Part shown: piece by piece, positions 3,689 to 56,980 of the stretch
Numbering within the stretch: position 1 is the stretch's first letter
How the letters are laid out: every line of letters begins with the position of its first letter
Assembly: GCA_020859985.1 (NCBI GenBank)
Contig: JAJBVD010000077.1
Coordinates: forward strand, 1 to 64,000
From: Clostridiales bacterium
GTDB taxonomy: Bacteria > Bacillota > Clostridia > Lachnospirales > Lachnospiraceae
DNA: 64,000 bases
Direction of reading: 5' to 3'
Translations under genes and position numbers: made by a program
The notes under the pieces: model-generated
The model's database searches: none
What the model was told of the DNA's origin: nothing
The model's input: only the letters and a program-made list of their open reading frames with translations

Positions 3689-3715
3689 CGTAAAAGCAGC
3701 CATCTGGCTTTTACG
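3689..3715 (-). other. Hairpin overlapping the phosphorylase stop codon
   Basis: CGTAAAAGC (3689-3697) and GCTTTTACG (3707-3715) form a 9-bp stem that includes the stop codon of the upstream phosphorylase gene. On the minus strand it is followed by an A-run, not a U-run, so it is unlikely to be an intrinsic terminator. A role in mRNA processing between the enzyme and transporter parts of the operon is possible. Confidence 0.45.
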
Positions 3716-6700
3716 TAGTAGTGGAATGCAAATATACCTCCATCCCCTTTACTTTCCCCTCTCTCACATCCAGCGCAGCCTTTTGCGGCAGGATGCCTGT
3801 ATCGAACTCCATTTCTAAAATGCTCTCTTCTGAAGCACTCCGTTCTGATCCGCTGCCGCAGCCAATGTCTTCTTCCATGTCAGCATACTGCAAAATCATT
3901 TTTTCAATCTCATACTGCCCCGGCAGATAGTCCTTCTGCTCCGGGAAATGGTAACGCACGGTGATATTTCCAAGGAACCGCGCCTCGACAATGCCGTCCG
4001 CCGGAATCAGCCAGGCGGGAATAGCCGGGCACAGCGACAATGTTAAAGTCTGATCTTTTTCATCCATTGCAAACGGCTGCTTTCCAAACATCATTAACGT
4101 CCACATATGGATGAATTCCGCTGTGGAGCCGCTTAAGCGGGCTACGAAACCGCGTCCGTGCACGCGCGGATCGGGGTTCGCGCTGCTTGCGAGGAAAGAG
4201 GAATTCTCATAAACGCTCCTGCCATATACTTCCGGATTCAGGAACGGCACCGCCGCGGCGTGGAAATCCCGGAAAAATTCTTCGTAGAGACCGGATTTCA
4301 GCAGTTCCAGAAGATATTTGTACTCCATGTGCAGCCAGATGGACTCGTTTTCCAGCCAGCCCGGCGTGAACGCCATACAGCGTCCCAGTTCGAACGAGCT
4401 TCCCGCAAGGGGTTCATTGACCTTGTACATGGAAAGCTTCTTGTCATACAGTTCACTTTCCTTTATGCGCTCATAGAGTTTTTTCTTTTCGGACTCCGGC
4501 GCAGGAAGCCGCAGGGCATGCACCGGTCCCTCAAGGAAATGTGGGAGGCTTACCTGTTCAAAATGAGTCGGCAGAATTCCTTCGCTGCTCTCCTCATACG
4601 CAGTCACATTATAATAGAAGTAAGACGGGCAGATGCCGTCCGCTGCCGCGGTCGCTTTCTGAAGCCCAGCATTGACCAGGCAAAGCCATTCTTCCAGCGC
4701 AGATATCAGCTCTTCTGCTTTTAACGTCGCCTTTTTGCCGCTCACTCCGTTGTAAACTTTCGCGCGGTACGCCTCTTTTGCGTCGTTGACGCGGTTCCAG
4801 AAGGAAAGGCTCTCTCCCGGAGAAAGCAGATCTTCCTTTTCCTCCTGCGCGATTTCCCGAACATCACTGAAAAACTCCGCCATCTCCGTCAATGTCTCCA
4901 CATCCCGCCTATATTTTTTCAGGGAACGGATCGTGTATTCCAGCACACGGGAGAGCTCTCCAAGTTCGCAGACCGAGGAACCCAGAAGTCCCGGCAGACC
5001 ATTCAGCGCATCGTACCAGCCCGGTTTTCCGCCTTCCATCTCAATTCCCATGCCGTAGGCGTCCAGCGCGGCGAATTTGGTCGTGCAGAGCATCAGAAGC
5101 TTTTCCATGATTGTCGCATGGATCACATGTCCTGCTCCATAGTCGTCACAAAGCAGCAAATCATTCTCGCAGCCTGGTTTTGCTTTCAAATCTTCAGCGC
5201 CGCACCAACGCGAAGCGTTCTCTGAATGGGCGGCGCGTTCTGCCGCCGATGCATAGCGAGGGGGCACTTCCGTAAGGGAGTGATACTGGCGAATTCCCTG
5301 CTCCGTCTTTTCATAGCGTTTTCTCCGCTCCAGCACACCGGCCTGCGGGCGGAACCAGGTGCATTCCGGCGCGTAGAGCAGTTCTTCCTCTTTTTCTGGA
5401 AACACGCGCAGATAATTCTCGACCAGATCCAGATTGTAGATCCAGTGATCGGTCCAGTAGCCTTCCCCGAAGTTGCCGTTCACAAGCGGCGTCGCGAAAG
5501 AAAGGCAGCGATCAAAGACAGTATTGATCTTGTCATCTGCACTCTGAAAATCCACACTCTGGCTGTCTGCGTTTTGTGTCCGCACCATATGCGTTTCCGA
5601 TGTCTCCGATAATTTCTCCGCCAGCATCCGATACAGACTTCCAGGCGTGAATGTGAATTTTTTAACTGAATCCTTCATCCCTGCCTGAGAATGTTCTTCC
5701 GGGAACAGCTCCGGGCACTTTGCTTTTTCCAGCTCATAGGTAATCTTTTCCACACCGAGCGGATTGTAGCCGTCCGGCTGCAGCAGCGAATAGAATGTGC
5801 GCACATTAAAATCACCCACGAACGGGAAGAACAGCGGATCGCAGCGGCGGTTCTGGTTCACATCGCGGAAGTTGCCGTTTCCCTGCGAATAAAATTCCGG
5901 CATCATCGAAAAATAGTTGTAGTCCCGCTCCAAGTCGCCGTGCTTTCTGGAGTAAACATAAAACATTTTCGCACTCGCCTCTGCCCGGCTATTTTTCTTA
6001 TCATCAGCAATCGTGTGCGGACATTCCTTTTGCTTCTCTGACACAGAACCGATTGCTTCTTCGCTGCTTCCCAGCAGCACAGGCACGCCGCCGCGCAGAG
6101 CATTGTCCATAAAGGTATATCTGCAATACTCATCAAACACCGGATCCGCAGTATGGCAGTCCATGTTCGCTCCCAGTTCTTCTCCGAGAGCAAGCGCGGT
6201 CTCTTTTTTCCTGGCAAAATACGAAGCATCCAGCTTTTTCTCTCCAAAAGCCCGCAGCTCTTTCATCCTCTCTGCCTGCCCGATCACCTCATATAAGGTC
6301 ACCGACTCTCCTTTTCGCAGCGTCTTTTTGAGTCCGAAAAAGCTGCAGGGATAACGATTCTTCCGCATCTGCGGGCAGGCATTGACGCCATCCAGCCCCT
6401 CTTTCACAAATACCACAGGAAATCCCAGCGAGCTGTCGTACGCAAACACTGCCTGCGGATCTGCCACAGCCGTAATCCGTGTGCCGTCCGCAGTCGTGCC
6501 AATCGAATAATTCGCTCCTTCCACCGCACGCACAACAGTAGAATCTCCCATGCTCGCCCGTACCCGGTAGCAGCTAATGCCGTCTCCGATAACCTCTGAC
6601 TCCATCCAGGCCACGGAAAGCTCCTTCATCATCTTCGTCATCTCAATAGAAAGACCATAGGGTACTACCGCCGGCATACCGTCGAGAAGTTCCAGATCGC

Positions 6701-7142: not shown

Positions 7143-9967
7143 GCTCTCCTCCTCTTTTTTCTGTCCAGCTCGACCTCAACTGACACTGCAGCCCCTTCCG
7201 GCAGCCGTTCCAGCTCTTCCTTTGCCATCCGATACAGCGTTTCGCTTCCCTGTATTTCCTGCGCCCGACCGTTGATCCACACTTTTTCGATTGCATACTC
7301 GCCATAATCCAGCCGCTCCCGGTTGCAGTAATGGATATTCCAACTTTTATGCGCAAATTCTGTCTGAATTCCCGCCCTTCCGGCATCATCAAACTGTTCG
7401 CGCATCAGCTTCGGCTCCAGCACCAGATCGCCGTAATCGCCCCTTACGCCAAACACTTCCGTGACCACAGTCATCATCATCCAGCTGGCCGCGCCGGTCA
7501 GATAATGGTACATGCCCCTGCCGCGGTCGTTGAAATATTCCGGAATCCCCGGATAAATTCGGCTCATTTCAAAATCCGAAGCCTGCTCAAACAGGCTGAC
7601 CAGAGCCTTATAGCCTTCTTTTGCAAAACCTCTCCGATACAATGCGTTTCCGTACATCACCGCCATGTGGGAAAAGACCGCTCCATTTTCCTTATGTCCG
7701 TAAGCAAATCCGAACATTCTCCCTAAATCAGTCTTTACTTCTTTAAAATCCGTGTTCAACCGATAGCCTCCGAGTTCCTTTTTATAAAGCCACCGGTCCG
7801 CCGCCCGCACGATCTGCCGTGTCTGTTCTTCCGTAGCGGTCCCGGACATGATTGTAAACACCTGACCGGTCAGCATCATGCGGGGTTCTGCGGTCATGAA
7901 TCCGCTTCCCGCCGCCTCTGCTGTTCCGGGTTCTTCCGTATCGCCGGCGGTTTTCTCTCCATTTTCTCTTGCAGACGGAATATGCTCCACAGCCCTTCCA
8001 TGATTATCATAATAGCTGTTGAACCAGCCGCAGTTCTCATCCTGCAGCCATTCTGTCTTGCGGATATGTTCGCGTATCTGCTCCGCCATCCTTTTCAGCA
8101 CTCCCGCCGCATATTCCGTATCGAGGAAGACGCTTCGGCCTGAAACGGTCGGATAGCAGGAAGCGCAGTATTTTTTCAGAATTTCCTGCCAATCATTCTC
8201 TCCTGCCGCAATGTCCGGTTTTTCCGCTGCCGTAAAGAGGATTTCCATCTCCCTCGCAATCTCCAGCTGCGTCATACCCGTTTTTTCCTTCAGCCACAGA
8301 AGAAGCTCTGAGAGGGTCTGCAGATTCATTGCGTAAGCCGCCGTAAATGCCACGCTTTCTCCCCGGTCAGGCGCCATGTCAAGCGCGTCGTTCCAGTCCG
8401 CCCCGCGCAGCCGCATATGCCCATGCTCTCCTGTCTCATAAAACGCGGTCAGATTCTGCACCAGAAGATGTTCAAGCACCGTACCGGTGTATATTTTCCC
8501 GTCCTGATCCTGCAGCACCGGTTTATCGGTATTTTCACACTCATCATCCACCACTGTCCCACGCATCTCCTGCCGATCCTTGAAATACGGACACTCCTTC
8601 ATCAGCACAGAAGCGTCCCCCGTCTGATCTATGTAAAACTTTACGGTAAACAGCGGCCAGAATCCATGGTCCATCCAGACACGGGTAATATTGTTGCGGT
8701 CCGCAATAAACTCTCCCGGCCTGCTGCCGATGATTGTCGCGTTGGTGCCGTCCATACGCACGCCGCCGCAGTTATCAATGATCATCTGACGCACCCCATC
8801 CGGATTCATGATCAGAAGCGCCAGACAATCCTGCCAGAGGTCTCTCCAGCCCCGCCCGCCTTTTCCGTAATCATGGTGCGGCAGAAATGAACAGCCATAG
8901 ATTCGCCGCAAAATCGGCTGAAACGTCACCCAGTACATCCAATGGTCAAATTCCGGATTTCCTGTCTGCAGCCGCACGTTGATCCGGTTGTTCCAGTAGT
9001 TTTTTGTTTCCTGCAGCACTGCTTCTGCTTCCTGAAGGGTCTGTATTTCAACAGATCCGGCATCGTTTTTACTTTGCTGTTCAACTTCTTCCATTCCGAT
9101 CCGAATCAAAAACGCTGTTTCTTCCTCCGGTTCCAAAGTCACATCTGCGAACCGTATCGCCCCAATAGCCTCATATCCGGCGTATTCCCGTCCAGGCTTT
9201 TCAAATGGTAAATTGCGCACAACCTTTTCCGGCCATAAAAGGCTGCCGCCCTCGCCGACAAAGTCTTCCAGTACCGGACAAAAACCGATTGGCTTTTCTC
9301 CATTGCCACTGCATCCCGTCACAAAATAGGTCTTCGTATTGACCTGATGCCCGCGTTCGTCAAACGTAAGAGTCGGCTTCACAAACACGCCGTCCTCCGT
9401 CGTATAGATTCGATGAAGCAAACTCGTAACATGCCGGTGGTCGCGGATATTATCCGCACTGCGCGCATACAATGGAATCGCCGCGATTGGGGAAAAGCGT
9501 ACGGTTTTATCCCCGGTATTCTGTATCCTGACGATCATCATTTCCGTGAGGACATCCCGCACCGGCACAAAATTCGTAATTGATGCCGTCAATCCAGTCT
9601 GCTTCTCTTTGCGTGTCACGCACTGCCACATCGGCCCAGCCGTGAGTACCGGTTCCCCATCATCCTTCCCCGCGTTCAAAAACTGTTCCATCTCCGCCGC
9701 CGCAGAATTTCCCGCCGCCGACCAACAAACGCCATCGTCCGTCACGCACCAGAAATTACGCCCCGCCTTCGATTCCATCAGATCTTCCGCGCTCACCGGC
9801 TGCAGCACAAAGGTATTCTGATCCATCTTTAAATCCCCGCTCAGTTTCGGGGTAATCGCTCCTTTCAGGCCATTTTCCCCTGCAATCGGGAAATACAGAT
9901 AGCTAGTCTGATCCGGCCTGCGCAGCCGAAAAGTGCCATTGTCATCCAAATATTCATATCCTCTCAT
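7139..9967 (-). CDS. GH94 disaccharide phosphorylase, specificity unknown
   Basis: This 942-aa cytoplasmic phosphorylase has a beta-sandwich N-terminal region (YLYFPIAGENG, then KMDQNTFVLQPVS) and a C-terminal helical barrel. DWNDALD (Asp524, Asp527) matches the catalytic region of GH94. GHKENGAVFSHMAVMYGNAL near the C-terminus is also typical of the family. The start at 9967 was chosen because GGGAGAAG lies directly upstream; a longer reading frame to 10069 would run through a terminator. A hydrophilic insertion (ENGEKTAGDTEEPG region) lies near 7900-7980. The N-terminus resembles laminaribiose-type rather than cellobiose-type members, but only from memory. It overlaps the next GH94 gene by 4 nt, so the two enzymes are co-translated and may act on long and short oligosaccharides in turn. 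Confidence 0.82.
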   Translation of the reverse strand: MRGYEYLDDNGTFRLRRPDQTSYLYFPIAGENGLKGAITPKLSGDLKMDQNTFVLQPVSAEDLMESKAGRNFWCVTDDGVCWSAAGNSAAAEMEQFLNAGKDDGEPVLTAGPMWQCVTRKEKQTGLTASITNFVPVRDVLTEMMIVRIQNTGDKTVRFSPIAAIPLYARSADNIRDHRHVTSLLHRIYTTEDGVFVKPTLTFDERGHQVNTKTYFVTGCSGNGEKPIGFCPVLEDFVGEGGSLLWPEKVVRNLPFEKPGREYAGYEAIGAIRFADVTLEPEEETAFLIRIGMEEVEQQSKNDAGSVEIQTLQEAEAVLQETKNYWNNRINVRLQTGNPEFDHWMYWVTFQPILRRIYGCSFLPHHDYGKGGRGWRDLWQDCLALLIMNPDGVRQMIIDNCGGVRMDGTNATIIGSRPGEFIADRNNITRVWMDHGFWPLFTVKFYIDQTGDASVLMKECPYFKDRQEMRGTVVDDECENTDKPVLQDQDGKIYTGTVLEHLLVQNLTAFYETGEHGHMRLRGADWNDALDMAPDRGESVAFTAAYAMNLQTLSELLLWLKEKTGMTQLEIAREMEILFTAAEKPDIAAGENDWQEILKKYCASCYPTVSGRSVFLDTEYAAGVLKRMAEQIREHIRKTEWLQDENCGWFNSYYDNHGRAVEHIPSARENGEKTAGDTEEPGTAEAAGSGFMTAEPRMMLTGQVFTIMSGTATEEQTRQIVRAADRWLYKKELGGYRLNTDFKEVKTDLGRMFGFAYGHKENGAVFSHMAVMYGNALYRRGFAKEGYKALVSLFEQASDFEMSRIYPGIPEYFNDRGRGMYHYLTGAASWMMMTVVTEVFGVRGDYGDLVLEPKLMREQFDDAGRAGIQTEFAHKSWNIHYCNRERLDYGEYAIEKVWINGRAQEIQGSETLYRMAKEELERLPEGAAVSVEVELDRKKRRRA

Positions 9968-13491: not shown

Positions 13492-13568
13492 GTCATAGAT
13501 TCGCTTTGCGAATCTGTGACGAAGGCCACCGCATCGCCTGCAAGGCGATTCTGCATGCGGCGGCTTTC
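13492..13568. repeat. Two-stem structured repeat, copy a
   Basis: Stem 1 is AGATTCGC (13497-13504) with GCGAATCT (13508-13515). GACGAAGG follows. Stem 2 has outer arms GCCaCCGCAT (13525-13534) and ATGCGGcGGC (13555-13564), and an inner stem CGCCT-gca-AGGCG followed by the bulge ATTCTGC. Copy b at 48367-48447 has the same layout with different but still paired arms. Confidence 0.75.
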
Positions 13569-13591
13569 CAGTTTCTTATAAAAATAACAAA

Positions 13592-29507: not shown

Positions 29508-32096
29508 TCACCGAATATCATACACACTCCGCAGACGCAGCTTCGAAGCGTCTCCGCTCTCAATCTTCACGCGCTTTGTCCCTGCGTTCATGTCAAAATA
29601 GTTGTCAGAAAGGATCAGATCCTCGTTCTCATTGAGGATCTCCACGCTCTTTGCGTAAGCGGAAGCCGTCACCTCAATCTCATCCCCGATCACACGGCAG
29701 GTCAGCTGCGGATCCTCGTATCGGAAGTATTTCGGATAAGAAAAGTTCACGGTGCCTTCTGATATAATCTTTCCATCTTTTTCCAACTCGTAGCTGATGT
29801 ACTCACGGTAAATATCCGCATCCGGGAACTCGACTTTATCCAGCCAGACGCTCATAAGCGCCGGCACGAGAATCTCGTTCTCGCCGCTGCGCAGGATCTT
29901 CGCTGACGGGTCGCGCAGCGCCCAGCGGACGGTCACAGTCTCATCGTGCATCGTCTCATTCGCCACATTCAAACGAATGGACTTCTCGAAATCAAAGTGC
30001 TCGCGCACCAGCTCTTTCCCGGATGTCACCAGTCCCTGTTCCTCACAGGAAATCATTAGTGGAGCAAAGAACCGCTTCGCGTAATAATGCAGCGCCTTCA
30101 GGCGGCCGCAGTAGTCAATAGACGACCAGGAAGCCACCGGCCAGCAATCATTGAGCTGCCAGTAGATTGCTCCCATGCAGCGTCCGCGGTTCCGGCGGAA
30201 ATGCTCGACACCATAGCGGATACCGTCCGCCTGCAGCAGCTGCGACGCATAAAGCACTGTCTTAAAATCAGACGGATAACGGTAAGTCTGCTGCATATAG
30301 TTCATGATCTTGCCGTTTGCGCTGCCGTTGCGCTGATGCTTTTCCATAATATAAGAGAAAATATTGTAATCAGCCGGATCATCGCTGATCTGCTCGATCG
30401 TCTTCATCGTCGGGAAGGACTGGAATCCGAACTCGGACAGATAGCGGAAATAATACTTCCGGTACTCGGTAAACGGCTTATCTCCATGCCATACCTGCCA
30501 GTAATGCACATCGCCGCGGTTCGGATCCTGCGGGTCGTCAAAGCTGCCGCCTGACGACGGGCTCGACGGCCAGTAAAAGGTCTGCGGGTCGTATTTCGCC
30601 AGTTCCTCCGGAATCACGCGCTCATACATAAACAGATAGTCGCGCACCTCCTGCGGCTTCGTCACCCACTCATTGCGTTCCGCAACAAAGGATTCCATCT
30701 CATTGTTGCCGCACCAGAGTCCCAGACTCGCGTGATGACGCAGTCTCTTGATATTGTCCGCAAACTCCGCCCGGATATTTTCCTCAAATTCCGGCGTCAG
30801 ATCGTAGACTGCGCACGCAAACATGAAGTCCTGCCATACGACCAGTCCCAGCTCATCGCAGGCATCATAAAACCAGTCTTCCGGATAATAACCGCCGCCC
30901 CAGACACGGATGGCGTTGTAATTCGCCCACTTACACTTTTCCAGCAGCGTACGTGTCGTCTGCGGCGTCACACGCCCAAGCAGATGATCCTCCGGAATAT
31001 AATCCGCACCCATCGAGAAAATATCAACGCCATTAACCTGGCAGGCAAACGATTCGCCCCACTGATCCTTCTCCCGGTGCATCGTCATGGTGCGAAGACC
31101 GATGCGGCGCGTCCAGGTATCAAGAACAGAATTATCTTTCTCTATCAGTTCCACCGACACCGTATAAAGCTTCTGCTCGCCGTAGCCGTTCGGCCACCAG
31201 AGCTGCGGCTGGTCAATCTCAATATCTGCCAAAGGTTCTGAAACCGTCACACTCAAAACCTTGCCGTCCGGATCGGTCACCGTTACCCTGTATTCAAATG
31301 CCGGTGATGCATCCACATCAGAAGCAAAGCGCACGGCGTTCTCTGCAGCATTTTTTTCACTGCAAACACTGCTCAACTCCGTCGCGATATCAAGGTGCAG
31401 CCGTACCTTCTCCACAGCGTCTGCGAAACGCGAAGCGTTTTCTGCATCGCAGGAAGATCCTTCTTTGCGGATATGCTCCTGCGTCACATACACGCTGTCA
31501 ATCCTCGCCGCACCAATGCCGAGCAGCGATACCGGGCGAAACAGCCCCGCATCCGGCAGATGTGCGCCCCAGTCCCAGCCAAACATACAATGTGCCTTAC
31601 GGATGTGTACAAAACCATCCATCGCGTCCGCAGTCCCTTTCGTCGGACGTTCTGCATATTTTTCCGCTATGTATTTTGTCGGCGAATGAAACACTACGCG
31701 AAGTTCATTTCCCTCTGCTTTCAGAATATCTTTCACACCAGCAGCTGCGGCTTTCAGCTCGTACTCCCACACGCGGTGCATATTGCACGGTGAGCCAAGC
31801 AGCACACCGTTCAGGTAGACGTCCGCAATTGTATCCACGCCGTCAAAGTGCAGCAGTACTCTCTCGCAGGAACGCAGCTCGTCCGGACAGTCAAACTCTG
31901 TCACATACTCATAATCCTTATCCATCAGGCGAAGCGCCTCGTCCTCATTATCTTTCCAGAACGGGTCTTCCATCCTGCCTTCCCGCAACAGGTCCGTGTA
32001 CACCGATCCCGGCACAACAGCCGGAATAAATTCCATTGCCGGATCGTCACTGATTTCCCTCATCCTCCAGTTTTCATTCAAGTCAAGTCGTATCAT
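29508..32096 (-). CDS. Beta-mannosidase, GH2 family
   Basis: This 862-aa cytoplasmic enzyme removes terminal beta-mannose residues. The N-terminal jelly-roll has NENWRMRE and DPFWKDNEDE, typical of beta-mannosidases. The acid/base is Glu466 in CGNNEMESF and the nucleophile is Glu555 in YLSEFGFQSF. The second of two adjacent ATG codons was chosen because GGAGG lies 5 nt before it. A hydrophilic insertion (residues about 215-260; AENASRF, AENAVRF) contains a palindromic repeat shared with the GH94 gene. It follows a CUT1 importer and a LacI regulator, forming a mannoside utilisation cluster. Confidence 0.93.
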   Translation of the reverse strand: MIRLDLNENWRMREISDDPAMEFIPAVVPGSVYTDLLREGRMEDPFWKDNEDEALRLMDKDYEYVTEFDCPDELRSCERVLLHFDGVDTIADVYLNGVLLGSPCNMHRVWEYELKAAAAGVKDILKAEGNELRVVFHSPTKYIAEKYAERPTKGTADAMDGFVHIRKAHCMFGWDWGAHLPDAGLFRPVSLLGIGAARIDSVYVTQEHIRKEGSSCDAENASRFADAVEKVRLHLDIATELSSVCSEKNAAENAVRFASDVDASPAFEYRVTVTDPDGKVLSVTVSEPLADIEIDQPQLWWPNGYGEQKLYTVSVELIEKDNSVLDTWTRRIGLRTMTMHREKDQWGESFACQVNGVDIFSMGADYIPEDHLLGRVTPQTTRTLLEKCKWANYNAIRVWGGGYYPEDWFYDACDELGLVVWQDFMFACAVYDLTPEFEENIRAEFADNIKRLRHHASLGLWCGNNEMESFVAERNEWVTKPQEVRDYLFMYERVIPEELAKYDPQTFYWPSSPSSGGSFDDPQDPNRGDVHYWQVWHGDKPFTEYRKYYFRYLSEFGFQSFPTMKTIEQISDDPADYNIFSYIMEKHQRNGSANGKIMNYMQQTYRYPSDFKTVLYASQLLQADGIRYGVEHFRRNRGRCMGAIYWQLNDCWPVASWSSIDYCGRLKALHYYAKRFFAPLMISCEEQGLVTSGKELVREHFDFEKSIRLNVANETMHDETVTVRWALRDPSAKILRSGENEILVPALMSVWLDKVEFPDADIYREYISYELEKDGKIISEGTVNFSYPKYFRYEDPQLTCRVIGDEIEVTASAYAKSVEILNENEDLILSDNYFDMNAGTKRVKIESGDASKLRLRSVYDIR
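31427..31444 (-). repeat. In-frame palindrome inside the beta-mannosidase gene
   Basis: AACGCGAAGCGTTTTCTG matches 5207-5224 in a GH94 gene at 17 of 18 bases, including the palindrome AACGC-GAA-GCGTT. It is translated in the same frame in both genes (ENASR). Shorter pieces (GCGAAGCGTTTT) occur at 15222-15233 and, reversed, at the 3' end of addB. Confidence 0.6.
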
Positions 32097-47300: not shown

Positions 47301-48326
47301 CACACCGCTTTTCTGAAACTCCTCCATCAGCACATCAAGATCATCATAATAATAGCGTTCACGCAGTGCTTTGATCTGCTCCTTGCAGTCTGCCCGGATC
47401 GCAGCCACCTGCTGCTTCTTCTCCTCGGAAATCCGTTCATCCTTTTTTGTGCCAAGGCGCGCCCAGCCGCCCATGCTCCGGAAATCATTTAAGTATTCAG
47501 CAAAGGTTTTCCCGCCGGACGCTTCGCGGGCAGACGCTTCCATCAGTTTCCCGACAAGCTCCAGATCCGAAAGCAGCGCTTTCTCATAAGGATACGGGCC
47601 GTCCGGCTCCCTCGTGATACGAAGTGCCTGTTCCAGTTGTCCCTTCACATCGTTCAGGCGCACCGCCGTGTCCGATTCAATAAAGGAAAACCAGGCTGCA
47701 TCCTCAGAATCGGTGAATACATACGCCTCACGGCATTCCTTCAGCCAGTCTTCCGGAAAAGGCTGTCCCAGCGCAAAATGATAAACCTGCAAGATCATCT
47801 CTTCCACGTCCGCATCGCCTTTTCCGGTCGAAAACTGCTCCAGAAATGCAGCAAATTCCGTTTCTTCCATTCTCTCAGGTATATATGCCTCATCCACAAT
47901 CTCTTTCACTGTCTCCTGCTCCAGCAGAAGCATCTCTCCCTCATCTGCGATTCGAAAAGACGGATCAATCCCGATCGTCTGGAAATGATTGCGCAGTACA
48001 TGCAGGCAGAAGCTGTGTATCGTCATAATCTTCGCGTTCATCACAAGGACCAGCTGTCTCTGCAGATGTTCATTATCCGGATCCTGCTCTGCTCTTTTTT
48101 CCAACGCATCACGGATACGCCCACGCATTTCCGCCGCAGCAGCGTTGGTAAAGGTGACGACAAGCAGACGGTCGATATCAATCATGTCTGCACCCGTGAT
48201 AATGGTAATAATACGCTCAACAAGCACTGCCGTCTTTCCGGAACCGGCCGCCGCGGAAACAAGAATATCCTTTTCCCGCGTGTCAATGACCAGCTGCTGT
48301 TCAGCTGTCCATCGTACTTCACTCAT
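44394..48326 (-). CDS. addA: ATP-dependent helicase/nuclease AddA
   Basis: This 1310-aa subunit of the AddAB helicase-nuclease processes double-strand breaks for recombination. UvrD-like helicase motifs include SAAAGSGKTAVLVERI, MIDEYQDSN and VFVGGMGKAF. The C-terminal nuclease has VVDYKTDR. Insertions rich in Ser/Ala/Asp/Glu occur (SVQNMDSADGAGSAENF, and QRSADRAADERTYPEKPE). The start at 48326 follows AGGAGG at 8 nt and overlaps the addB stop by 8 nt. Confidence 0.96.
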   Translation of the reverse strand: MSEVRWTAEQQLVIDTREKDILVSAAAGSGKTAVLVERIITIITGADMIDIDRLLVVTFTNAAAAEMRGRIRDALEKRAEQDPDNEHLQRQLVLVMNAKIMTIHSFCLHVLRNHFQTIGIDPSFRIADEGEMLLLEQETVKEIVDEAYIPERMEETEFAAFLEQFSTGKGDADVEEMILQVYHFALGQPFPEDWLKECREAYVFTDSEDAAWFSFIESDTAVRLNDVKGQLEQALRITREPDGPYPYEKALLSDLELVGKLMEASAREASGGKTFAEYLNDFRSMGGWARLGTKKDERISEEKKQQVAAIRADCKEQIKALRERYYYDDLDVLMEEFQKSGVIVRELTRLTEVFMKRLSEKKAEKNVLDFGDMEHLALNALVNREKESGELQPSAVALEYAETFEEVMIDEYQDSNLVQELILSSVSGKCIGAHNRFMVGDVKQSIYRFRLARPELFMEKYHSYRPARVTAEPTGKSGSVQNMDSADGAGSAENFREEGSCRIDLHSNFRSRHQVLDSVNFVFRQIMTEELGGVAYDDDAALYPGADFPESKPAETAAFAQRSADRAADERTYPEKPEVSDPYQTELLLLDGESAEDAAASANLREEEAKMIGRRILELVGHMPVVDKDDAKENGGIRPARYGDIVILLRTVSGWAETFGEVLADMGIPVFTGSQKGYFSAAEVRTVLSYLQTLDNPLQDIPLAAVLRSAIGRFTDEELAKIRLAAKNEPNVSFYDCCRRYMTGEAFLETPSDNLIVEKLYTFFDTYENLRSRCAHTPVHQLIWELLDVTGYGEYAAALPAGQQRQANLNMLVEKAIAYESTSFRGLYHFVRYIENLQKYEVDYGEASLTGEAGDVVRIMSIHKSKGLEFPIVFVGGMGKAFNESDARSKVVMHPEWGIACDYTWTPSASEQHPSDDQLPRMRQATLLKKAIQQKLSTENLGEELRVLYVAMTRAKEKLILTGGVKNLEKKMQTWAMAAEHISYSWLSGASNYLDWVVPAVLKADSLFAVRVLCPEENQEAAQTEQMKDLFTLQDLLRLDRTRCLDEQAKDYLGQVFSAVYPYEKNQSIPGKVTVSELKKMSQKMEENDAQELYKIEETVVPLIPRFMGNAPVNSPIGAERGTAYHTFMENLDFSKKEDLRLQLEELISCGKMSEDAAASIRLEDISAFLQTNLGERMERAAVRGQLFREQPFVLGVPSSEIYGSPSAKERRMSGEDFMEMSAVKDHGDPENAFEEEIVLVQGIIDAYFIEDGEITVVDYKTDRVPDGETLIRRYRTQIDYYEKALKRLTGQPVRERMIYSFHLGEEIRL

Positions 48327-51300
48327 GCGCGTCACCTCCTATCCCGCCATTTAAAAAACGCTTCGCGTCATGTCCCGATTCGTCTGACGAATCGTGGACG
48401 AAGGCCGTGCCATCGTCCGAAGGACGATTCTGCATGGCACGGCTTTCAGATTTAGACAGGCGCTCCCATACTTCGTCAGCTGTGATCTGCGGTTTGTGCG
48501 GCGCGCAGCGTCCCGGAAGCTTTCGGTCTATACCGCAGACATCCGCGTAGGGGCAGTAATCACACGCGCTTTTATTCTTATCCGTAAACGGATGCGCCCC
48601 GATCTCACCCGCCAGGATCCGGTTCCCTGTCTGGGAAAGCAGCTGTGACACATAAGCCGAAAGATGTTCAAACTGCTCCGTCGTTGCGAGACTGGATGTT
48701 GCTTTCGGGGTCCCGTCCTTTTTCATACCGACCGGTATCACGAGCGAATCTCCATTCAAGTCTTCATCCATGAGACGTACCACCGGCCCGTCCCCGTTGA
48801 CCAGACCGTTCGGCCGCATTTTTTTCAAAAGCGCGTCGGAAGCCTGCTGCGGATTTTCTTCTTTTTCCAGGACCGGATCCCAGAGATGATGGTAAAAAAT
48901 TCCCGCCGGAACTACCTTTTTCCCGGGATGCAGCTTTTTCTCCATCTCCAAAGCGGCGTTCAGGTAGACGACAAGCTGCAGCTGCAGGCCGTAATAAAGC
49001 GACACCGGATCAAACTGCGCGGAACCGGATTTGTAGTCTACCACCTTCACATACACGGTATCCTCTGTCTCCGCCGTATCAATGCGGTCAATCCGCCCGC
49101 GCAGGTGTATGCGCCCGTGGTCGTCCAGCAATACCTGCGCTGCGTCAATATCCTGTGTATCTGCAAAAGAAACCTCTGAACTGACAGGACGGAAACGTCC
49201 GGCCATAATCTGCTCGCGCATCACCCAGACGGTACGCCGCAGAATGCGTTTCAGCCGCCTGATCGTATATTCCTCTCTGGCTCCCGCATGCAGGATTCCG
49301 CCTTCATATGTCTTCGCTGCCAGCTCTACGCATTGATCCATCTCCTTTGCCTGCTCCTCATACGGGTATTCGCCCCAGTCACGCTTTTTGGCAAGCATGC
49401 GCCGGGAAAAAAGCTCGATAGCCTCGTGGAAAAGGTTCCCCAGATCCGCCGCCTTTACCCCGTACTCCGTGCGCTCCTTCAGCAGCAATCCGTAAGAAAC
49501 AAAATGAGAAAACGCGCAGCCCGCAAACTGTTCCAGCCGGGTCACGCTCGCTGTCATCTGTCCCGCTCCTCCGGACGGGTCTGAGCCAAGGTACAGCTCT
49601 CTGGCTGTCGATGCACTCAGCTTTTCCTCCATGTCGGATCCGTCCATCTTACAGCGATCCTGCATGGAAGCGGCGTCCTGTCCGCGCGAAAATGCCGCAC
49701 ACGCAAGAGTCCGCACGCGAGCACTGTAATTTTCATCATTTAAGTACTGACGATAAAGCTCCAGCCATGAAGTCCCGGCATGATCCGTCACAGTACCGTC
49801 ACGGGAAGGGGCGGATGATGAAGCGGTATCCGGATATCCTTGCTGTTCACGCACAGATATTGCAGATGTCCGCAGGTTCTGCAGTCCGTGCAGCAGATAC
49901 AGCATACCGTTCTCTTTTGATGTCACCTGTGAAAGAGTGCTTCCCGCATCCTGCTCCTTTTGCACCTCCAGCTTCGGAAACAGCCTGCGGATTGTTCCGA
50001 CCAGATAAGAAGGCCGCATCGCCGTCCCGTCTCCGCTGCTTACGCACCAGGACAGATACAGCCGATCCTGCGGCTTGGTCAGATTCTGATATAGATAAAA
50101 TCTCTGGATATAGCTGTTTTCCCGCGCTGTCGGCGCAAGATTCGCGCCCGTCGCGATCAGGATCTCACGCTCCGTATCAGAGACGATCCCGCCGCCATCC
50201 CCGTGGGACGGCACCCAGCCGTCATTCAATCCGAGGAAAAAAAGAACTTTCACATTCGCAAGTCTGGAACGGCGGATATCGCCTACCTGCACCTGATCGA
50301 TACCGGGCGGGATAATCCCGATCTTCGCCTCAGAAAGCCCGGCATCCAGAATCTGTGCAAATTCCGCACAGTCCATCGTCTCCTCACCGAGCAGATCGAC
50401 CATCTCATCTAAAAGTCCGATCAGAACCGGATAGACCTGCCGGTATTCATCCGCCAGTTCCGCAGTTCCGCCAACCAGCCGTGATGTTCCCTGAACATCA
50501 CGGCCGGACGCTTTTCCGGGATTTCCATGTGAATCCGTTTTCAGTTCGTCTTCACGATCTTTCAGCAGCTGCTGCACCCCGCAGTCCTCCAGAAGCTGAT
50601 AGAGGCAGCGCGCATATTCCGATAGAGGCCGGCCCTGCCTTTGCATCTCTTTTGCAAATGTGCCGACACGTTCCATGAAACGGATGCGCAGAGAATTGTA
50701 GAGGGCCAGACCCACAAGCGGAATCTCAGCCTCCTCCGGCCGGCTGTCCGCGCTGCCTGAATCAACTGAATTCTCATCAGCGGAAGAAATATCCCCGGAA
50801 AACGCTACATTTTGCAATCCGGCCGGGCACCACGTCCATTCCCTCTCCCAGCTGCTTCGGCCGCGAATTCCCGCAGCCAGGCAATAATTTTCCAGCCGGT
50901 CCGTTTCGTCCGAAGTCAGTCCCGCCATGCCGGTACGCAGGAAACGGAACACACTCTCCCGCGAAAAATCCTGCTGCACCATCGCGAGCGCGCCGCGCAC
51001 AAATTCCAGACAGGGATTCAGAAGCAGCTGCCTGGTCTCGTCAACGAAAGCCGGGATGCCGTAGGTTGGAAAGATTTTATTAACATAATTTCCATAGGCG
51101 GCCATATCTCCGGCAATCACCGCAATCTCCCGATAACGGTAATGTTCTTCCCGCACCAGCTTCGAAATCGTACGCGCCGCAAAATGCACCTCCTGCGCCG
51201 GAGATGTCAGTTCATGCAGGGAAATCTCATCGCAATGAGATGGAGCAACGTTGTCCGTCTGATCCTGGCCGGGCCAGGAACCGTCACCAGATGTTTCCAA

Positions 51301-52350
51301 TACGTCCTCTTTATAAGGCCGCTGTTTTTTGCGGAATAAATTCTGCTCAAGATGATACAGCTCCCCGCCTTTTCGGAAGCGCGGGAGCCCGATGCTTTTC
51401 TGATTGAAACCATCTTCTCTCCCATGAGCGGATTCTTTGAAGGATTCTTTTGTCGGTCCCAGCACGACCGGCTCGCCAAAAACCCCGGGGTTTTCATCTG
51501 CGTCAGATTTCTCATTTCCTGCTGTCTCACCCATCGCACGGGAAACACTGTCTGATGGATTTGCCTCCATCGCGCACTGCACCACACTCCGGATCAGGCG
51601 GCGGCTCGGCGTAAACAGCTCATGCTCCCGGATTTCTCCGAAAAAGTTCTCGCGGGCGTCAATCGTCACAGTCAGATAAATCATCGGACAAACTCGCAGC
51701 AGTTCTCTTAATACCGTGAGCTGGGAAGGCGTAAATCCGGCATATCCGTCAAACGCCAGTACACTATTTCTCAAAAGCTCCGAACGTCCCGCTACCTGCG
51801 CGAGCATCTCCAGCAGCTCCTCCGGCTTCATAAAACGTTCCCGCTGATAGTCGAGAAACGCACGGTAAAGCACCCGGATATCCTCCAGCTTTGCATGCAG
51901 CAGCGGGCGGTTTTCAACAGAATCAAGCATGTCCTGCAGATCCATATCCGAAATCTCATACTGCATCAGCTCGGAAAGGATGGATTTGACCTCTGAGACA
52001 TACCCGGTGCGGTTCATACGCGCACCAAGTACCTTCAGTTCATCCCTTTTTTCCTCTGCCACACGGCGGATCATCAGGTTTTTGCCGGTCTCTGTGAGCA
52101 CCGTTCTCTGGTCCGCACCTACCTCCTCGAAAACGCGGTGCGCCAGCCTCCGGAAGCTCAGGACGTCAATGTTCATGATGCCCTTATCTGGATGCAGCAT
52201 CACCAGATCCCGCTGCGTCTGCATCGTGAACTGCTCCGGTACGATCACCAGATAGCTGCGTTCCGGATGCCTGCGGGACTCCTCTATGATTTTCTGATAA
52301 AGGCAGTAAGATTTCCCACTTCCTGAATTTCCAAAAATGAACTGCAGCAC
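48319..52350 (-). CDS. addB: ATP-dependent helicase/nuclease AddB
   Basis: This 1343-aa partner of AddA has an N-terminal P-loop (FGNSGSGKSYCLYQK), a helicase-like body, and a C-terminal nuclease (VVDYKSGSAQFD). It carries a 4Fe-4S cluster made from an early Cys (FAGCAFSHF) and the late CDYCPYADVC group. It is longer than usual because of several hydrophilic insertions (SSADENSVDSGSADSRPEE and others). The last 45 residues are encoded in part by a structured repeat (48367-48447), so the natural C-terminus may have been extended by insertion. Confidence 0.95.
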   Translation of the reverse strand: MLQFIFGNSGSGKSYCLYQKIIEESRRHPERSYLVIVPEQFTMQTQRDLVMLHPDKGIMNIDVLSFRRLAHRVFEEVGADQRTVLTETGKNLMIRRVAEEKRDELKVLGARMNRTGYVSEVKSILSELMQYEISDMDLQDMLDSVENRPLLHAKLEDIRVLYRAFLDYQRERFMKPEELLEMLAQVAGRSELLRNSVLAFDGYAGFTPSQLTVLRELLRVCPMIYLTVTIDARENFFGEIREHELFTPSRRLIRSVVQCAMEANPSDSVSRAMGETAGNEKSDADENPGVFGEPVVLGPTKESFKESAHGREDGFNQKSIGLPRFRKGGELYHLEQNLFRKKQRPYKEDVLETSGDGSWPGQDQTDNVAPSHCDEISLHELTSPAQEVHFAARTISKLVREEHYRYREIAVIAGDMAAYGNYVNKIFPTYGIPAFVDETRQLLLNPCLEFVRGALAMVQQDFSRESVFRFLRTGMAGLTSDETDRLENYCLAAGIRGRSSWEREWTWCPAGLQNVAFSGDISSADENSVDSGSADSRPEEAEIPLVGLALYNSLRIRFMERVGTFAKEMQRQGRPLSEYARCLYQLLEDCGVQQLLKDREDELKTDSHGNPGKASGRDVQGTSRLVGGTAELADEYRQVYPVLIGLLDEMVDLLGEETMDCAEFAQILDAGLSEAKIGIIPPGIDQVQVGDIRRSRLANVKVLFFLGLNDGWVPSHGDGGGIVSDTEREILIATGANLAPTARENSYIQRFYLYQNLTKPQDRLYLSWCVSSGDGTAMRPSYLVGTIRRLFPKLEVQKEQDAGSTLSQVTSKENGMLYLLHGLQNLRTSAISVREQQGYPDTASSSAPSRDGTVTDHAGTSWLELYRQYLNDENYSARVRTLACAAFSRGQDAASMQDRCKMDGSDMEEKLSASTARELYLGSDPSGGAGQMTASVTRLEQFAGCAFSHFVSYGLLLKERTEYGVKAADLGNLFHEAIELFSRRMLAKKRDWGEYPYEEQAKEMDQCVELAAKTYEGGILHAGAREEYTIRRLKRILRRTVWVMREQIMAGRFRPVSSEVSFADTQDIDAAQVLLDDHGRIHLRGRIDRIDTAETEDTVYVKVVDYKSGSAQFDPVSLYYGLQLQLVVYLNAALEMEKKLHPGKKVVPAGIFYHHLWDPVLEKEENPQQASDALLKKMRPNGLVNGDGPVVRLMDEDLNGDSLVIPVGMKKDGTPKATSSLATTEQFEHLSAYVSQLLSQTGNRILAGEIGAHPFTDKNKSACDYCPYADVCGIDRKLPGRCAPHKPQITADEVWERLSKSESRAMQNRPSDDGTAFVHDSSDESGHDAKRFLNGGIGGDAHE
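48367..48447. repeat. Two-stem structured repeat, copy b, inside addB
   Basis: Stem 1 is CGATTCGT (48376-48383) with ACGAATCG (48387-48394). Stem 2 has outer arms GCCGTGCCAT (48404-48413) and ATGGCACGGC (48434-48443), and an inner stem CGTCC-gaa-GGACG followed by the bulge ATTCTGC. The layout and linkers match copy a at 13492-13568, while the paired arms differ in both strands together. It encodes AddB residues including MQNRPSDDGTAFVHD. Confidence 0.75.
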
Positions 52351-52442: not shown

Positions 52443-53354
52443 TTACAGAATCGGATCGTCCAGCCGCTTGATTTTTTCCAGCAGCTGTTCTACCTCAAGC
52501 GCTTCGATATCCTGTTCCGTACTTTGTGCGTTCTCTGTTTTGCCTGCTGCCTCAATCTCTCTGCGGAGATCCAGCATCGTCATATCCGTCTCCGAAATCA
52601 CATCCGCACAGTTTTTCAGACGCTCCGCAATCTTGTCCTGATCCGGAATATCCTTTTTGTACTTCATCTCATGCTCCAGGCTCGCCCAGAAATCCATGGC
52701 GATCGTGCGGATCTGCACTTCCACCTTCATGTCCTTTTTCTGGTCAGTAAAAAAGACCGGCACGCTGACGATCAGATGCAGACTCCGATAGCCGTTCGGC
52801 TTCGGATTGGAAATATAATCCTTTTCCCGCAGCAGATGGATATCATCCTGCGCGATCAGCGCCTGCGCCAGCAGGTAGATATCATCGACATAAGAACAGA
52901 TTACGCGCACTCCGGCGATATCGTTGATATTATCCACCAGACATCTCATCGAGAGCTTCTGATCCTGCCGGAGCATTTTTTCGAAAATACTGTGCGTACT
53001 TTTTACCCTCGTAGTGATAAAATTGATCGGGTTCCGCTGATAGCGAACGCTGAACTCCGTATTCAGCACATCAAATTTTGTCCGGATCTCTTTTAACGCG
53101 CAGGTGTACATCATCCGAAGCTTTTTATATTCTACCATCTGGTCGATGATCTGCTCTACCTGCGTAAGTGAGAGTCCGGACATGGCAATCGGGTTCTCGA
53201 TCTGCCCGAGAAACATCTGCTCGACATATTCATCTTCCAGAGCTTCGCCCATCGCGCAGCGATTTTGCATTGGCGAAGCGACCTGCCGCCGAGCCTCGCG
53301 AGGGGGCACTTCCACATTGAGCAATGCATTTTCTTCCATGTTAGCGGATGCCAC
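52443..53354 (-). CDS. Small alarmone synthetase, RelA/SpoT domain
   Basis: This 303-aa protein makes (p)ppGpp or a similar alarmone from GTP/GDP and ATP. The synthetase domain spans about residues 105-235, with INDIAGVRVICSYVDD, KPNGYRSLHLIV and VEVQIRTIAMDFWASLEHEM. There is no hydrolase domain. It resembles RelQ/YjbM-type enzymes but is about 50-80 residues longer. The N-terminal extension (EVPPREARRQVAS, MQNRCAMGEALED) is encoded by repeat fragments shared with hisH, addB and the GH94 gene. The start is GTG at 53354, after AAGGAGG. Confidence 0.92.
   Translation of the reverse strand: MASANMEENALLNVEVPPREARRQVASPMQNRCAMGEALEDEYVEQMFLGQIENPIAMSGLSLTQVEQIIDQMVEYKKLRMMYTCALKEIRTKFDVLNTEFSVRYQRNPINFITTRVKSTHSIFEKMLRQDQKLSMRCLVDNINDIAGVRVICSYVDDIYLLAQALIAQDDIHLLREKDYISNPKPNGYRSLHLIVSVPVFFTDQKKDMKVEVQIRTIAMDFWASLEHEMKYKKDIPDQDKIAERLKNCADVISETDMTMLDLRREIEAAGKTENAQSTEQDIEALEVEQLLEKIKRLDDPIL
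53242..53313 (-). repeat. In-frame repeat fragments in the alarmone synthetase gene, copy c
   Basis: GCTTCGCC (53242-53249) pairs with GGCGAAGC (53272-53279), with inner CGC-gca-GCG and the bulge ATTTTGC, the same layout as stem 2 of copies a and b. Next to it 53283-53313 matches 5240-5271 of the GH94 gene, including 16 identical bases. Both are translated. Confidence 0.65.
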
Positions 53355-53538: not shown

Positions 53539-56424
53539 TTACGCATTCTTCAGTCTTGTAAGCTGCACCTGCACCTGCTCCATCATCTGCGTATACTTCG
53601 CAAGCTTCGCCTTTTCCTCGTCAATCTTCGCCTGCGGCGCTCTGCTCGTAAACTTCTCGTTGCCAAGCATTCCGTTGACACGGGCCAGTTCTTTGGTCAG
53701 GCGCTCCTCCTCTTTGGTCAGGCGGGCGAGTTCCTTTTCGAGATCCACCAGCTCCGCAAACGGCATATACACTACCGCGTCCGGAGTCACCGCCGAAACC
53801 GTATCGTCACTGATGCCGGTCTTGTCGGCCTGCACGTGCACCTCGCTCGCGTAGCCAAGTGTCGCGAAGAATACTTTTCCGTTTTCGAAAATGGAACGGA
53901 TTTCTTCATTCTCTGATACAACGAATACCTGCGCCTTTTTGCTCGGCGGCACATTCATGCCGGTACGGGCGTTGCGGATGGCGCGGACGGCTTCTTTGAT
54001 GGTCTCCACCGCTTTTTCATCGTCTTTAAAGCACCATTCCTCTTTCCACTCCGGCCAGGAGGAGATCATGATGGACTCCGCAATCTCCGGCATCGTCGCA
54101 GAAATGCAGCCGGGTCCTTTTACATCCTGTGCGCAAGTGCTTCCTGCCGCAGCTGTACCGTTCTGCGCGTCTCCGTTATGCAGTGTACAGAAAATTTCTT
54201 CTGTGATAAACGGCATAAACGGATGCAGCAGCTTTAACGCGTTGGTAAGCACCGTCTTCAAAGTCCAGAGTGCGGCGCCTTTTGTGGTATCAGTCTCGCT
54301 GTAAAGGCGCGGTTTTACCATCTCAATGTACCAGTCGCAGAATTCCTCCCAGATGAAGTCGTATACCTTCTGCACGGCGATACCCAGCTCGTAACGGTCC
54401 ATGTTGTCCGTCACTTCTTTTGCCAGGTCATTTACCTTGGAAAGGATCCATTTGTCCGCAATGGTTAATTCTGAAAGATCAATCTGCGTTCCGGCCTCAT
54501 CCGCCTTATCCAGATTCATCATGATAAAGCGGGACGCATTCCACACCTTATTTGCAAAATTGCGGGATGCCTCCACACGCTCCATGTAGAAGCGCATATC
54601 GTTGCCCGGCGCGTTGCCGGTAATCAATGTCAGACGCAGTGCGTCCGCGCCGTACTGGTTGATGATCTCCAGCGGATCGATGCCGTTTCCTAAGGATTTA
54701 CTCATCTTGCGGCCCTGCGAATCGCGTACCAGACCGTGGATCAGCACATGGTGAAACGGCACCTTGCCGGTCTGCTCAATCCCGGAGAATACCATGCGGA
54801 TGACCCAGAAGAATATAATGTCGTATCCGGTCACCAGCACATCGGTCGGGTAGAAATATTCCAGCTCCGGCGTCTTATCCGGCCAGCCCAGTGTAGAGAA
54901 CGGCCAGAGTGCGGAGGAGAACCAGGTATCGAGCGTGTCCTCATCCTGTTTAAAATGTGTGCCGCCGCATTTCGGGCAGATCTTCGGCATTTCGCGCGCC
55001 ACTACGGTCTCGCCGCAGTCGTCGCAGTAGTAAGCCGGAATCCGGTGTCCCCACCACAGCTGCCGGGAAATACACCAGTCTTTGATGTTTTCCAGCCAGT
55101 GCAAATAGGTCTTGTCAAACCGGTCCGGGACGAAGGTCAGCGTACCTTCAAAATCATATCCATCTGCCGCTGTTCCCTGAACGGATCCGTCTGCCGCGGA
55201 ATTCTCAGCAGTTTCCTGATCCGCGCTCTCCTGTGTCTCATGGGCAATCTCCGAGGCGAGATCTGCTCCCGGTACGTTAATCTTTCCGCGTTTCAGTGCC
55301 TCGATCGCCGGCTCCGCCATCTCCTTCATGCGCACGAACCACTGTGGCTTGATCATCGGCTCGACCGTGGTCTTGCAGCGGTCATGTGTTCCGACGCTGT
55401 GGGAATGCGGAACCACTTTTACCAGCAGGCCCAGCTTGTCCAGATCCTGCACCATCGCCTTGCGCGCTTCATAACGATCCATACCGGCGTATTTTCCGCC
55501 CAGCTCGTTGATCGTCGCATCGTCGTTCATGATGTTGATCTCCGGCAGGTTGTGGCGCTTGCCCACCTCAAAGTCGTTCGGGTCATGAGCCGGCGTGATT
55601 TTCACGCAGCCGGTCCCGAATTCTTTGTCAACATACTCATCTGCGATCACCGGAATCTGACGTCCTGTCAGCGGCAGCTCCAGCATTTTCCCGACCAGAT
55701 GCGTGTAGCGTTCATCGTCCGGGTTCACCGCCACCGCGGTATCGCCGAGCAGCGTCTCCGGACGTGTCGTCGCGATCTCGACAAACTGCCCCGGTTCTCC
55801 GACCACCGGATAATTGATGTGCCAGAAAAAGCCGTCCTGATCGACATGCTCCACCTCTGCGTCCGAAATGGAGGTCTGGCAGACCGGGCACCAGTTGATG
55901 ATGCGGGAGCCCTTGTAGATATAGCCTTTTTCGTAGAGGCGGATAAAGACCTCTTCTACTGCTTTGGAACAGCCCTCATCCATTGTAAAACGCTCGCGCT
56001 CCCAGTCTGCGGACGCACCGAGTTTTTTCAGCTGGTTCGTGATTTTTCCGCCGTACTCTTCTTTCCACGCCCAGGCGTGTTTTAAGAATTCCTCGCGGCC
56101 GATTTCCTCCTTGTCGATGCCCTGTTTTTTCAGCATCTCCGTCACCTTGACCTCCGTCGCGATCGCGGCGTGGTCCGTACCCGGCTGCCAGAGCGTCTCA
56201 TAACCTTCCATCCTCTTAAAACGGATCAGGATGTCCTGCATCGTCTCATCCAGCGCATGTCCCATATGCAGCTGCCCAGTCACGTTGGGCGGCGGAATCA
56301 CGATTGTAAACGGTTTCTTGTCCGGGTTCACCTTTGCGTGGAAGTATCCCTTATCCAGCCAGTTCTGGTAGATGCGGTCTTCCAGCCCTTTCGGGTCATA
56401 TGTCTTTGCCAGTTCCTTGCTCAT
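53539..56424 (-). CDS. valS: Valyl-tRNA synthetase
   Basis: This 961-aa class I synthetase has the HIGH-type motif (HMGHALDET, near residue 54) and [11 protein letters not shown]. An editing domain lies between them ([15 protein letters not shown]), and a C-terminal coiled coil forms the last 65 residues ([19 protein letters not shown]). Two hydrophilic insertions lengthen it: DNA about 55152-55245 ([19 protein letters not shown]) and about 54117-54180 ([16 protein letters not shown]). A T-box leader precedes the gene, so expression should rise when tRNA-Val is uncharged. Confidence 0.97.
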
Positions 56425-56526: not shown

Positions 56527-56980
56527 AAACGCCCTCTGCATGCACAAGCATACAAAGGGCGAATGTCTCGCGGTACCACCTTTTCTTACAGACACATCTC
56601 CTGCCGCCGATTTCAGCAGGTTTCCGGAGAATTCAGTCTGTATCTCATGTTTTCTGTAACGGGAAATCCCGGAATGCCTTACTCACTGTCCGATTCCGGC
56701 GTTCTTTGTACTTTTGCAGGTACAAATACATCGTCCCGAATTGTCCCCCGTAGGGAAATTGCCATTTTCATCCTTCTTCGGGCAGCTTCAGCCATTCAGT
56801 TCGAAAGCCACGTTCCGCATCCGTCATCCCCGGAAGGTCTTCCAGCCTGTGGACCCTCTTCTCTGTCGGCACCGCAATGCGTACTCCTCTTTCTCTATAC
56901 TGTCTCAATCAGTATTTAATTTTCATTTTCTCTCTGTATCGGATTGCCGTATGCGATTTCTGCAAGCAATCCTTACAGCT
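56527..56980 (-). promoter_or_regulatory. T-box leader of valS
   Basis: On the minus strand AGGTGGTACCGCG (56569-56581) is the conserved T-box sequence that binds the acceptor end of uncharged tRNA. Directly after it lies a terminator: GCCCTTTGTATGC pairs with GCATGCAGAGGGC (56531-56560) and is followed by GTTTTC. Upstream are AGTACGC and a long Stem I region (about 56740-56905). The specifier codon was not assigned; valine is inferred from the gene controlled. The leader is long, near 450 nt if it starts at the promoter at 56987-57015. Confidence 0.92.

Follow-up and report, generated by a model that had tools for sequence, protein, structure and literature searches.

Two related families of short structured repeats, TH and GA-cis, are multi-copy in the genome studied here (G000; other G numbers denote further genomes, L numbers denote loci), missing at many orthologous sites, frame-preserving in several conserved genes, and present as identical copies in another genus. 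We consider it likely that they are non-autonomous mobile palindromic elements of a selfish kind, which resemble the RPEs of Rickettsia and are probably recognised by their shape. A preliminary description of the window (the whole stretch of DNA analysed, 64,000 nt) had proposed that a structured, RPE-like repeat has spread into coding DNA, and this is supported by its multi-copy occurrence, in-frame inserts and empty sites; the observation as a whole is real and has been confirmed. Three copies, a, b and c, had been regarded as one repeat. This holds for copies a and b, which belong to the two-hairpin family labelled TH, but not for copy c, which constitutes the left-hand portion of a complete GA-cis member (Rfam RF02987), a separate but related element. 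The features in the window are the following.

13492..13570, + strand: TH copy a; 87.3 bits with model R1; crossed by no open frame of at least 100 codons.
48367..48449, + strand: TH copy b; 97.1 bits with R1; antisense in the 3' end of addB.
48319-52350, - strand: addB, with copy b within its 3' end, read as ESRAMQNRPSDDGTAFVHDSSDESGHD in the addB frame.
48347..48366, + strand: remnant of a GA inner hairpin, AAAACGCTTCGCGT, adjoining copy b and read as DAKRF in AddB; recognised by eye.
53238..53317, + strand: GA-cis, the complete form of copy c; 42.7 bits with RF02987 (cut-off 34.7), model positions 1-88.
52443-53354, - strand: alarmone synthetase gene with a RelA_SpoT domain; GA-cis lies antisense and in frame near the N-terminus.
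5193..5275, + strand: second GA-cis copy of the window; 33.5 bits, slightly under the cut-off of 34.7.
3714-7175 (stop to stop), - strand: open frame of 1154 codons that holds the antisense second GA-cis copy, peptide LTEVPPRYASAAERAAHSENASRWCGAE.
31420..31460 (ends approximate), + strand: lone GA core, an inverted repeat with outer stem, AAACGCGAAGCGTTT inner hairpin and TCTGCAT bulge; recognised by eye.
2175, 22124, 28951, 29299, 41485, 59797, 62284 and 62322: third repeat family, in up to nine places, eight of them clear by eye.

Both families are about 75-90 bp long and are built round a common core, which consists of an outer stem (8-9 pairs), an inner hairpin and a 3' bulge near TTCTGCAT; an extra hairpin is placed 5' of this core in TH and 3' of it in GA-cis. 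Copies a and b each fold as two hairpins, and in most TH copies the stem of hairpin 1 has 12-13 pairs, with CGTC inside the stem and a loop of 3 nt. The ends of 51 TH copies, compared by eye, are mostly GTCC on the left and mostly GGCTYTCC on the right. Copies a and b have been found at the positions, with the linkers and with the arms differing on both sides that had been described for them, and their likeness lies far beyond chance: R1, a model made from seven TH copies of the own genome with copies a and b among them, detects these two as the only strong TH copies of the window (next match 20.3 bits), and a BLAST search with copy b leads to further copies genome-wide. Copy c reaches 16.2 bits with R1, over the core only (model positions 33-72). 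At the gathering cut-off the TH copies of the window are without an Rfam match, and an Rfam search up to E 1 at 12 loci (L001-L012) gave no hit, neither RF02987 nor any other family being recognised in copies a and b.

Single modules occur as well, as seen by eye in the lone GA core near 31428, which falls within an open frame of 871 codons (- strand) and lacks the 3' portion of a full element, and in the GA remnant adjoining copy b; the first hairpin is doubled in L064 and L189. Two loci, L186 (G013:C31:153300-154150) and L189 (G008:C10:124700-125350), are composite, with an extra hairpin unit in or after TH, a sign of nested insertion. At L062 (G000:C21:10880) a TH copy lies within a longer palindromic repeat, CTTCCCTTGCTTCGCC..GCGAAGCAAGGGA, the flank of which matches many places in G008. 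The third repeat family of the window forms a GTAACTGT..ACAGTTAC hairpin with an 11-nt loop, TCAGTACCTTC, and is unrelated in sequence to TH and GA-cis. The window also contains a match to the T-box leader at 56552-56906 on the - strand (77.9 bits, below the cut-off of 93), upstream of a gene at 53539-56424 that we take to resemble valyl-tRNA synthetase.

The further genomic copies on which the proposal of a repeat depended number dozens. In the own 3.8-Mb genome, TH has at least 43 matches at E 0.01 or better, a lower bound from 150 of 927 candidates scored, and GA-cis has at least 41 at E 0.001 or better, likewise a lower bound (150 of 314 candidates scored), of which 36 (copy c and 35 others) lie above the RF02987 cut-off. 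Between copies the paired arms change together, as had been claimed, and the evidence for this is strong. In a MAFFT alignment of the seven TH copies, 86.1% of the cells are paired and both sides have changed in 14 of 26 pairs, values reached by none of 500 shuffles on either the pairing or the double-change measure. With 55 distinct TH copies from the own genome and congeners, aligned to the model and hence leaning towards structure, 25 of 26 pairs have changed on both sides, and 215 doubly changed cells compare with 47.5 in shuffles (0/500 as high on pairs and cells). For GA-cis (30 copies, MAFFT), 13 of 15 pairs are doubly changed, with 77 cells against 22.4 in shuffles, again with 0/500 as high.

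TH and GA-cis copies are insertions. The joined flanks of 25 of 60 loci were searched in nine congeners; 22 were aligned, with L060, L037 and L055 left out, and a clean empty site has been found in at least one congener at 15 of the 22, namely at L027, L030, L031, L035, L039, L041 and L052 for GA-cis and at L058, L062, L065, L067, L069, L070, L075 and L078 for TH. The remaining seven aligned loci (L033, L044, L061, L063, L064, L073 and L082) gave no clean empty site: the differences were larger or unclear, or an empty site was lacking altogether. An open frame of at least 150 codons runs through the repeat at 12 of the clean loci, and at 11 of these the net insert is a multiple of three bases (75, 78, 81 or 84 nt), the exception being L062 with 79 nt; the net inserts at the other three clean loci amount to 86, 88 and 88 nt. 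Two of the unclear loci lie in genes and fit poorly: L033 differs by 113 nt, and L044 by 66 or 83 nt from two congeners and by 30 and 6 from two others. At L065 (G000:C36:248519), an 88-nt TH insert seems by eye to shorten a small gene; congeners have several places similar to this gene, and in G008 it is uninterrupted.

The two genic copies of the initial proposal have been compared with their orthologues as well. The alarmone synthetase segment is not ordinary conserved sequence, as copy c is a 75-nt insert relative to the G008 orthologue, and the suspicion that the addB end is an insertion is borne out by R1, which among 19 AddB loci with readable 3' ends detects the segment in just two, those of G000 and G008. 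By eye, the site of copy b holds a scrap resembling hairpin 1 in G001 (GATTCGTAAACGAATCATGGACAT, L114) and a stretch resembling the end of the element in G014 (GAAAGCCGTGACCAG, L113), neither of which is found by R1; because of the hairpin-1-like scrap in G001, the insertion of copy b may be older than the split between G000 and G008.

The signal for target duplications is weak (best z 3.0, the best of 180 settings, in 51 TH copies), and duplications are clear by eye in L068, L072, L073 and L231, the last with AGTATTGATG on both sides. Terminal inverted repeats, a feature of MITEs, have not been seen by eye in the 51 TH copies, the ends of which are not inverted. The longest direct match across the element, determined for 60 copies, is at least 9 in 4/30 GA and 3/30 TH copies, compared with 1.1% and 0.9% of cross pairs. 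That the arms are copied from the target, an idea taken from L044 and L067, has been rejected as a general rule because L028 and L037 resemble tandem copies that have been truncated, and because arm and target are, by eye, unrelated at five empty sites (L031, L035, L039, L041 and L052).

Within the own genome, 26 of 30 GA-cis copies (20 antisense, 6 sense) and 15 of 30 TH copies run through frames of at least 150 codons; the frames are counted from stop to stop, so that copies near the upstream stop, such as L034 and L046 (GA-cis) and L060, L064 and L072 (TH), may be leaders. Of 30 insert-bearing proteins, 28 match a Pfam family at 1e-5, L045 among them under the curated cut-off, and those of L082 and L068 match none at this threshold. 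The genes named in this way include those for MutL (L028), MutS (L030), PriA (L053), a topoisomerase (L067), a RelA/SpoT-domain protein (L041), a radical SAM/TRAM protein (L037), a Mur ligase (L052), a response regulator (L039), ABC and MFS transporters and others; the identity of AddB has been adopted from the preliminary description, outside the Pfam scan. MutL, MutS, PriA, topoisomerase and AddB are hosts with a role in DNA maintenance, which echoes the intragenic REPs reported, in the available part of that source, from many DNA-repair genes as well (PMC3733652). The antisense GA-cis inserts are read in the same phase in 16 of 20 cases. This phase also lacks stops in more copies than the others do (24 of 30, compared with 19 and 16), but its excess remains after weighting for stop-freeness (p = 0.0004).

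After insertion, the stems at fixed sites seem somewhat conserved. In 11 pairs of filled orthologues at nine loci, the arms of which are nearly alike, differences amount to 21/606 in stems, 22/244 in unpaired positions and 215/2815 in flanks; stems thus change more slowly than unpaired bases (p = 0.0016), in pairs that share loci and hence are not fully independent. These totals omit L070-L096 and include the partly aligned L069-L187 and L061-L189, and the stems were defined by the minimum-energy fold of the own copy in question, which in some cases departs from the family fold. Eleven of the 21 stem changes retain the pair and ten break it. The claim that the structure is kept by joint change does not extend to single loci, as no compensated pair has been found among the 21 changes, the divergence being too small to expect one. 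The large differences between arms arise with separate insertions and not by change at a fixed site.

Among 60 relatives, every match falls within the own genus, with TH in 13 genomes and GA-cis in 16, and the congeners with at least 10 TH matches and those with at least 8 GA-cis matches are the identical 12 of 36. This co-occurrence is not independent evidence of a common enzyme, because the seven carriers in an AddB tree (22 genus genomes and 3 outgroups) form one clade (support 1.00), in which G000 and G008 are sisters (support 0.76). A family-wide survey of 299 Lachnospiraceae genomes from 298 genera, the own included, with 14-15 candidates scored per genome, has revealed a patchy distribution of GA-cis in at least 20 genomes at E 1e-7 and of TH in at least nine at E 1e-6. 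In other genera, 22 of 30 GA-cis copies examined lie outside long open frames, and tandem arrays occur. Counted in 27 rows, with arrays taken by their ends, GGAG stands among the element's first 12 nt in 21, and GGAG or GGAA follows within 20 nt after the element in 24, a count without chance control in which several of the stretches belong, by eye, to the start of another GA copy or piece and not to the site of a gene. The assignment of the other-genus TH copies rests on the common plan and the short linkers, ACGTAGGCC and GGCTCTC being kept while the arms are unlike those in the window. G251 has eight equal-scoring TH places, of which the seven compared are identical over 79 nt, have no common 25-mer in their flanks and all stand, by eye, just before a start codon; in G319, the four copies compared out of five are identical. 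At ten other-genus TH loci, an Rfam search up to E 0.5 has found no family at the repeat, its sole hit being sub-threshold and elsewhere in L248. An origin of other-genus TH from tRNA has been rejected, as no tRNA was detected in the six loci scanned.

These patterns have to be weighed against other explanations, the most serious of which leaves the mobility of the repeats in place. Correction of the hairpins, by template switching or gene conversion within a palindrome, would keep the arms complementary without selection on a fold. The pairs of TH are almost all Watson-Crick (1239 of 1353 cells, with 40 G-U), stems at fixed sites change more slowly than unpaired bases without a compensated pair, and long coding palindromes have been reported from nematomorph mitochondria, according to the available part of PMC6649704; yet ten of the 21 stem changes stay mismatched, and correction alone does not account for the conserved linkers and bulge, so that we regard this explanation as possible, if rather unlikely. 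If the elements instead were cis-regulatory RNAs acting in the transcript of the adjoining gene, the covariation would reflect selection on the RNA in place. Such a role would fit the slower change of stems, the intergenic GA-cis copies of other genera with GGAG or GGAA behind them, and the seven G251 copies in front of start codons. It fits poorly with the own genome, in which most GA-cis copies lie in long frames of functionally unrelated genes and 20 of them antisense, with a presence that differs between close species, and with the rarity of G-U pairs, the G-U versus A-C balance indicating one strand for TH and the other for GA (each marginal, p about 0.04); we therefore judge it improbable.

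The remaining alternatives concern the agent of mobility; a search confined to two enzyme families, Y1_Tnp and RVT_1, has brought no mobilising enzyme to light. A reverse transcriptase that inserts copies of a structured RNA, in the manner of SINEs, would agree with structured elements that have, by eye, no terminal inverted repeats and, in some copies, direct repeats of variable length, and RVT_1 is present in 9 of 10 congeneric carriers scanned. The exception, G013, is 100% complete and holds 57 TH and 26 GA-cis matches with neither RVT_1 nor Y1_Tnp, so that any reverse transcriptase there must have been lost, and we find this route slightly more improbable still. Movement as REP-type elements by RAYT or IS200-IS605 Y1 transposases is strongly disfavoured. 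The repeats are palindromic, multi-copy and intragenic like some REPs (available part of PMC3733652), with GTAG in some linkers, and the own genome has 2 Y1_Tnp matches; but of 12 aligned own copies only 3 have GTAG, and Y1_Tnp is missing from 4 (G013, G027, G030 and G035, with G027 65% complete) of the 12 congeners that reach 10 TH matches. It is also missing from 11 of the 14 carriers in other genera, among these 11 G251 and G319 with their identical copies.

On the favoured reading, TH and GA-cis would be two families of short non-autonomous mobile elements round one common module. A putative trans-acting enzyme would recognise the folded shape, as single-stranded DNA hairpins or as RNA, together with the short linkers, and we infer this recognition from the covariation and the conservation of the linkers. 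Because shape would be recognised, the arm sequences would drift in the source copies while remaining complementary. Insertion would favour TYTCC/GGAGR-like sites of the Shine-Dalgarno type and would sometimes leave a short target duplication. In the own clade, copies within genes would survive where they contribute 25-28 codons free of stops at a position that tolerates them, as with RPEs. We know of no duty of TH or GA-cis for the host, and they are most likely selfish and tolerated. More tentatively, both may be parts of one modular, shape-recognised superfamily of mobile hairpins across the Lachnospiraceae, with a mover that belongs to neither the Y1 transposases nor the reverse transcriptases and aims at Shine-Dalgarno-type sites; one clade would have turned to inserting the hairpins repeatedly, and in frame, into proteins.

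Several known systems offer partial parallels. The original description of GA-cis reportedly concerned a single species, Coprococcus eutactus, and gave the family a probable cis-regulatory role; its core, with outer stem, inner hairpin and 3' bulge, has the same plan in TH, and its name implies a leader position, whereas in the own genus it lies mostly inside open frames. To our knowledge, the CIRs of Caulobacter have no core bulge like the one in TH and GA-cis. They share the two long hairpin arms with a linker but, unlike TH and GA-cis, have not been found intragenically, as stated in the available portion of PMC2229807. The same portion describes the Rickettsia RPEs as short palindromic selfish elements of 105-146 bp that are intergenic as well as in frame in conserved protein genes (PMC2229807). 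TH and GA-cis are likewise palindromic and inserted in frame in conserved protein genes; they differ by their occurrence in another phylum, two covarying modules and a length of about 75-90 bp, and are likened to RPEs by their behaviour. CGTC-tagged REPs are palindromic with heterogeneous stems, occur intragenically also in DNA-repair genes and have no known transposase, and the available part of the source gives an unpaired CGTC tag, stems of 8-9 bp, loops of 4-5 and a CCA tail as their features and lists five phyla, Firmicutes not among them (PMC3733652). TH also has CGTC adjoining hairpin 1, read on the other strand, but there it is paired within a longer stem, mostly of 12-13 pairs, with a mostly 3-nt loop, so that TH lacks the features of the class as far as these are set out in that part. 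The literature searched, on palindromic or REP repeats in Coprococcus and Lachnospiraceae and on in-frame palindromic insertions, has yielded no report of these elements, with no mention of TH at all or of GA-cis inside reading frames, and with GA-cis only as a table entry in the Rfam 15 paper.

The finding extends protein-coding palindromic insertions from Rickettsia and some carriers of REPs to gut-type Firmicutes, in which an Rfam family named for cis-regulation acts as a mobile element, mostly within reading frames, a behaviour that a purely intergenic view would miss. It also provides natural pairs of genes with and without an insert of 25-28 codons, for MutS, a RelA-type synthetase, a Mur ligase and a topoisomerase, which lend themselves to tests of tolerance. 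Finally, it suggests that covariation may stem from mobility, which bears on approaches to RNA discovery that treat covariation as proof of a regulatory RNA.
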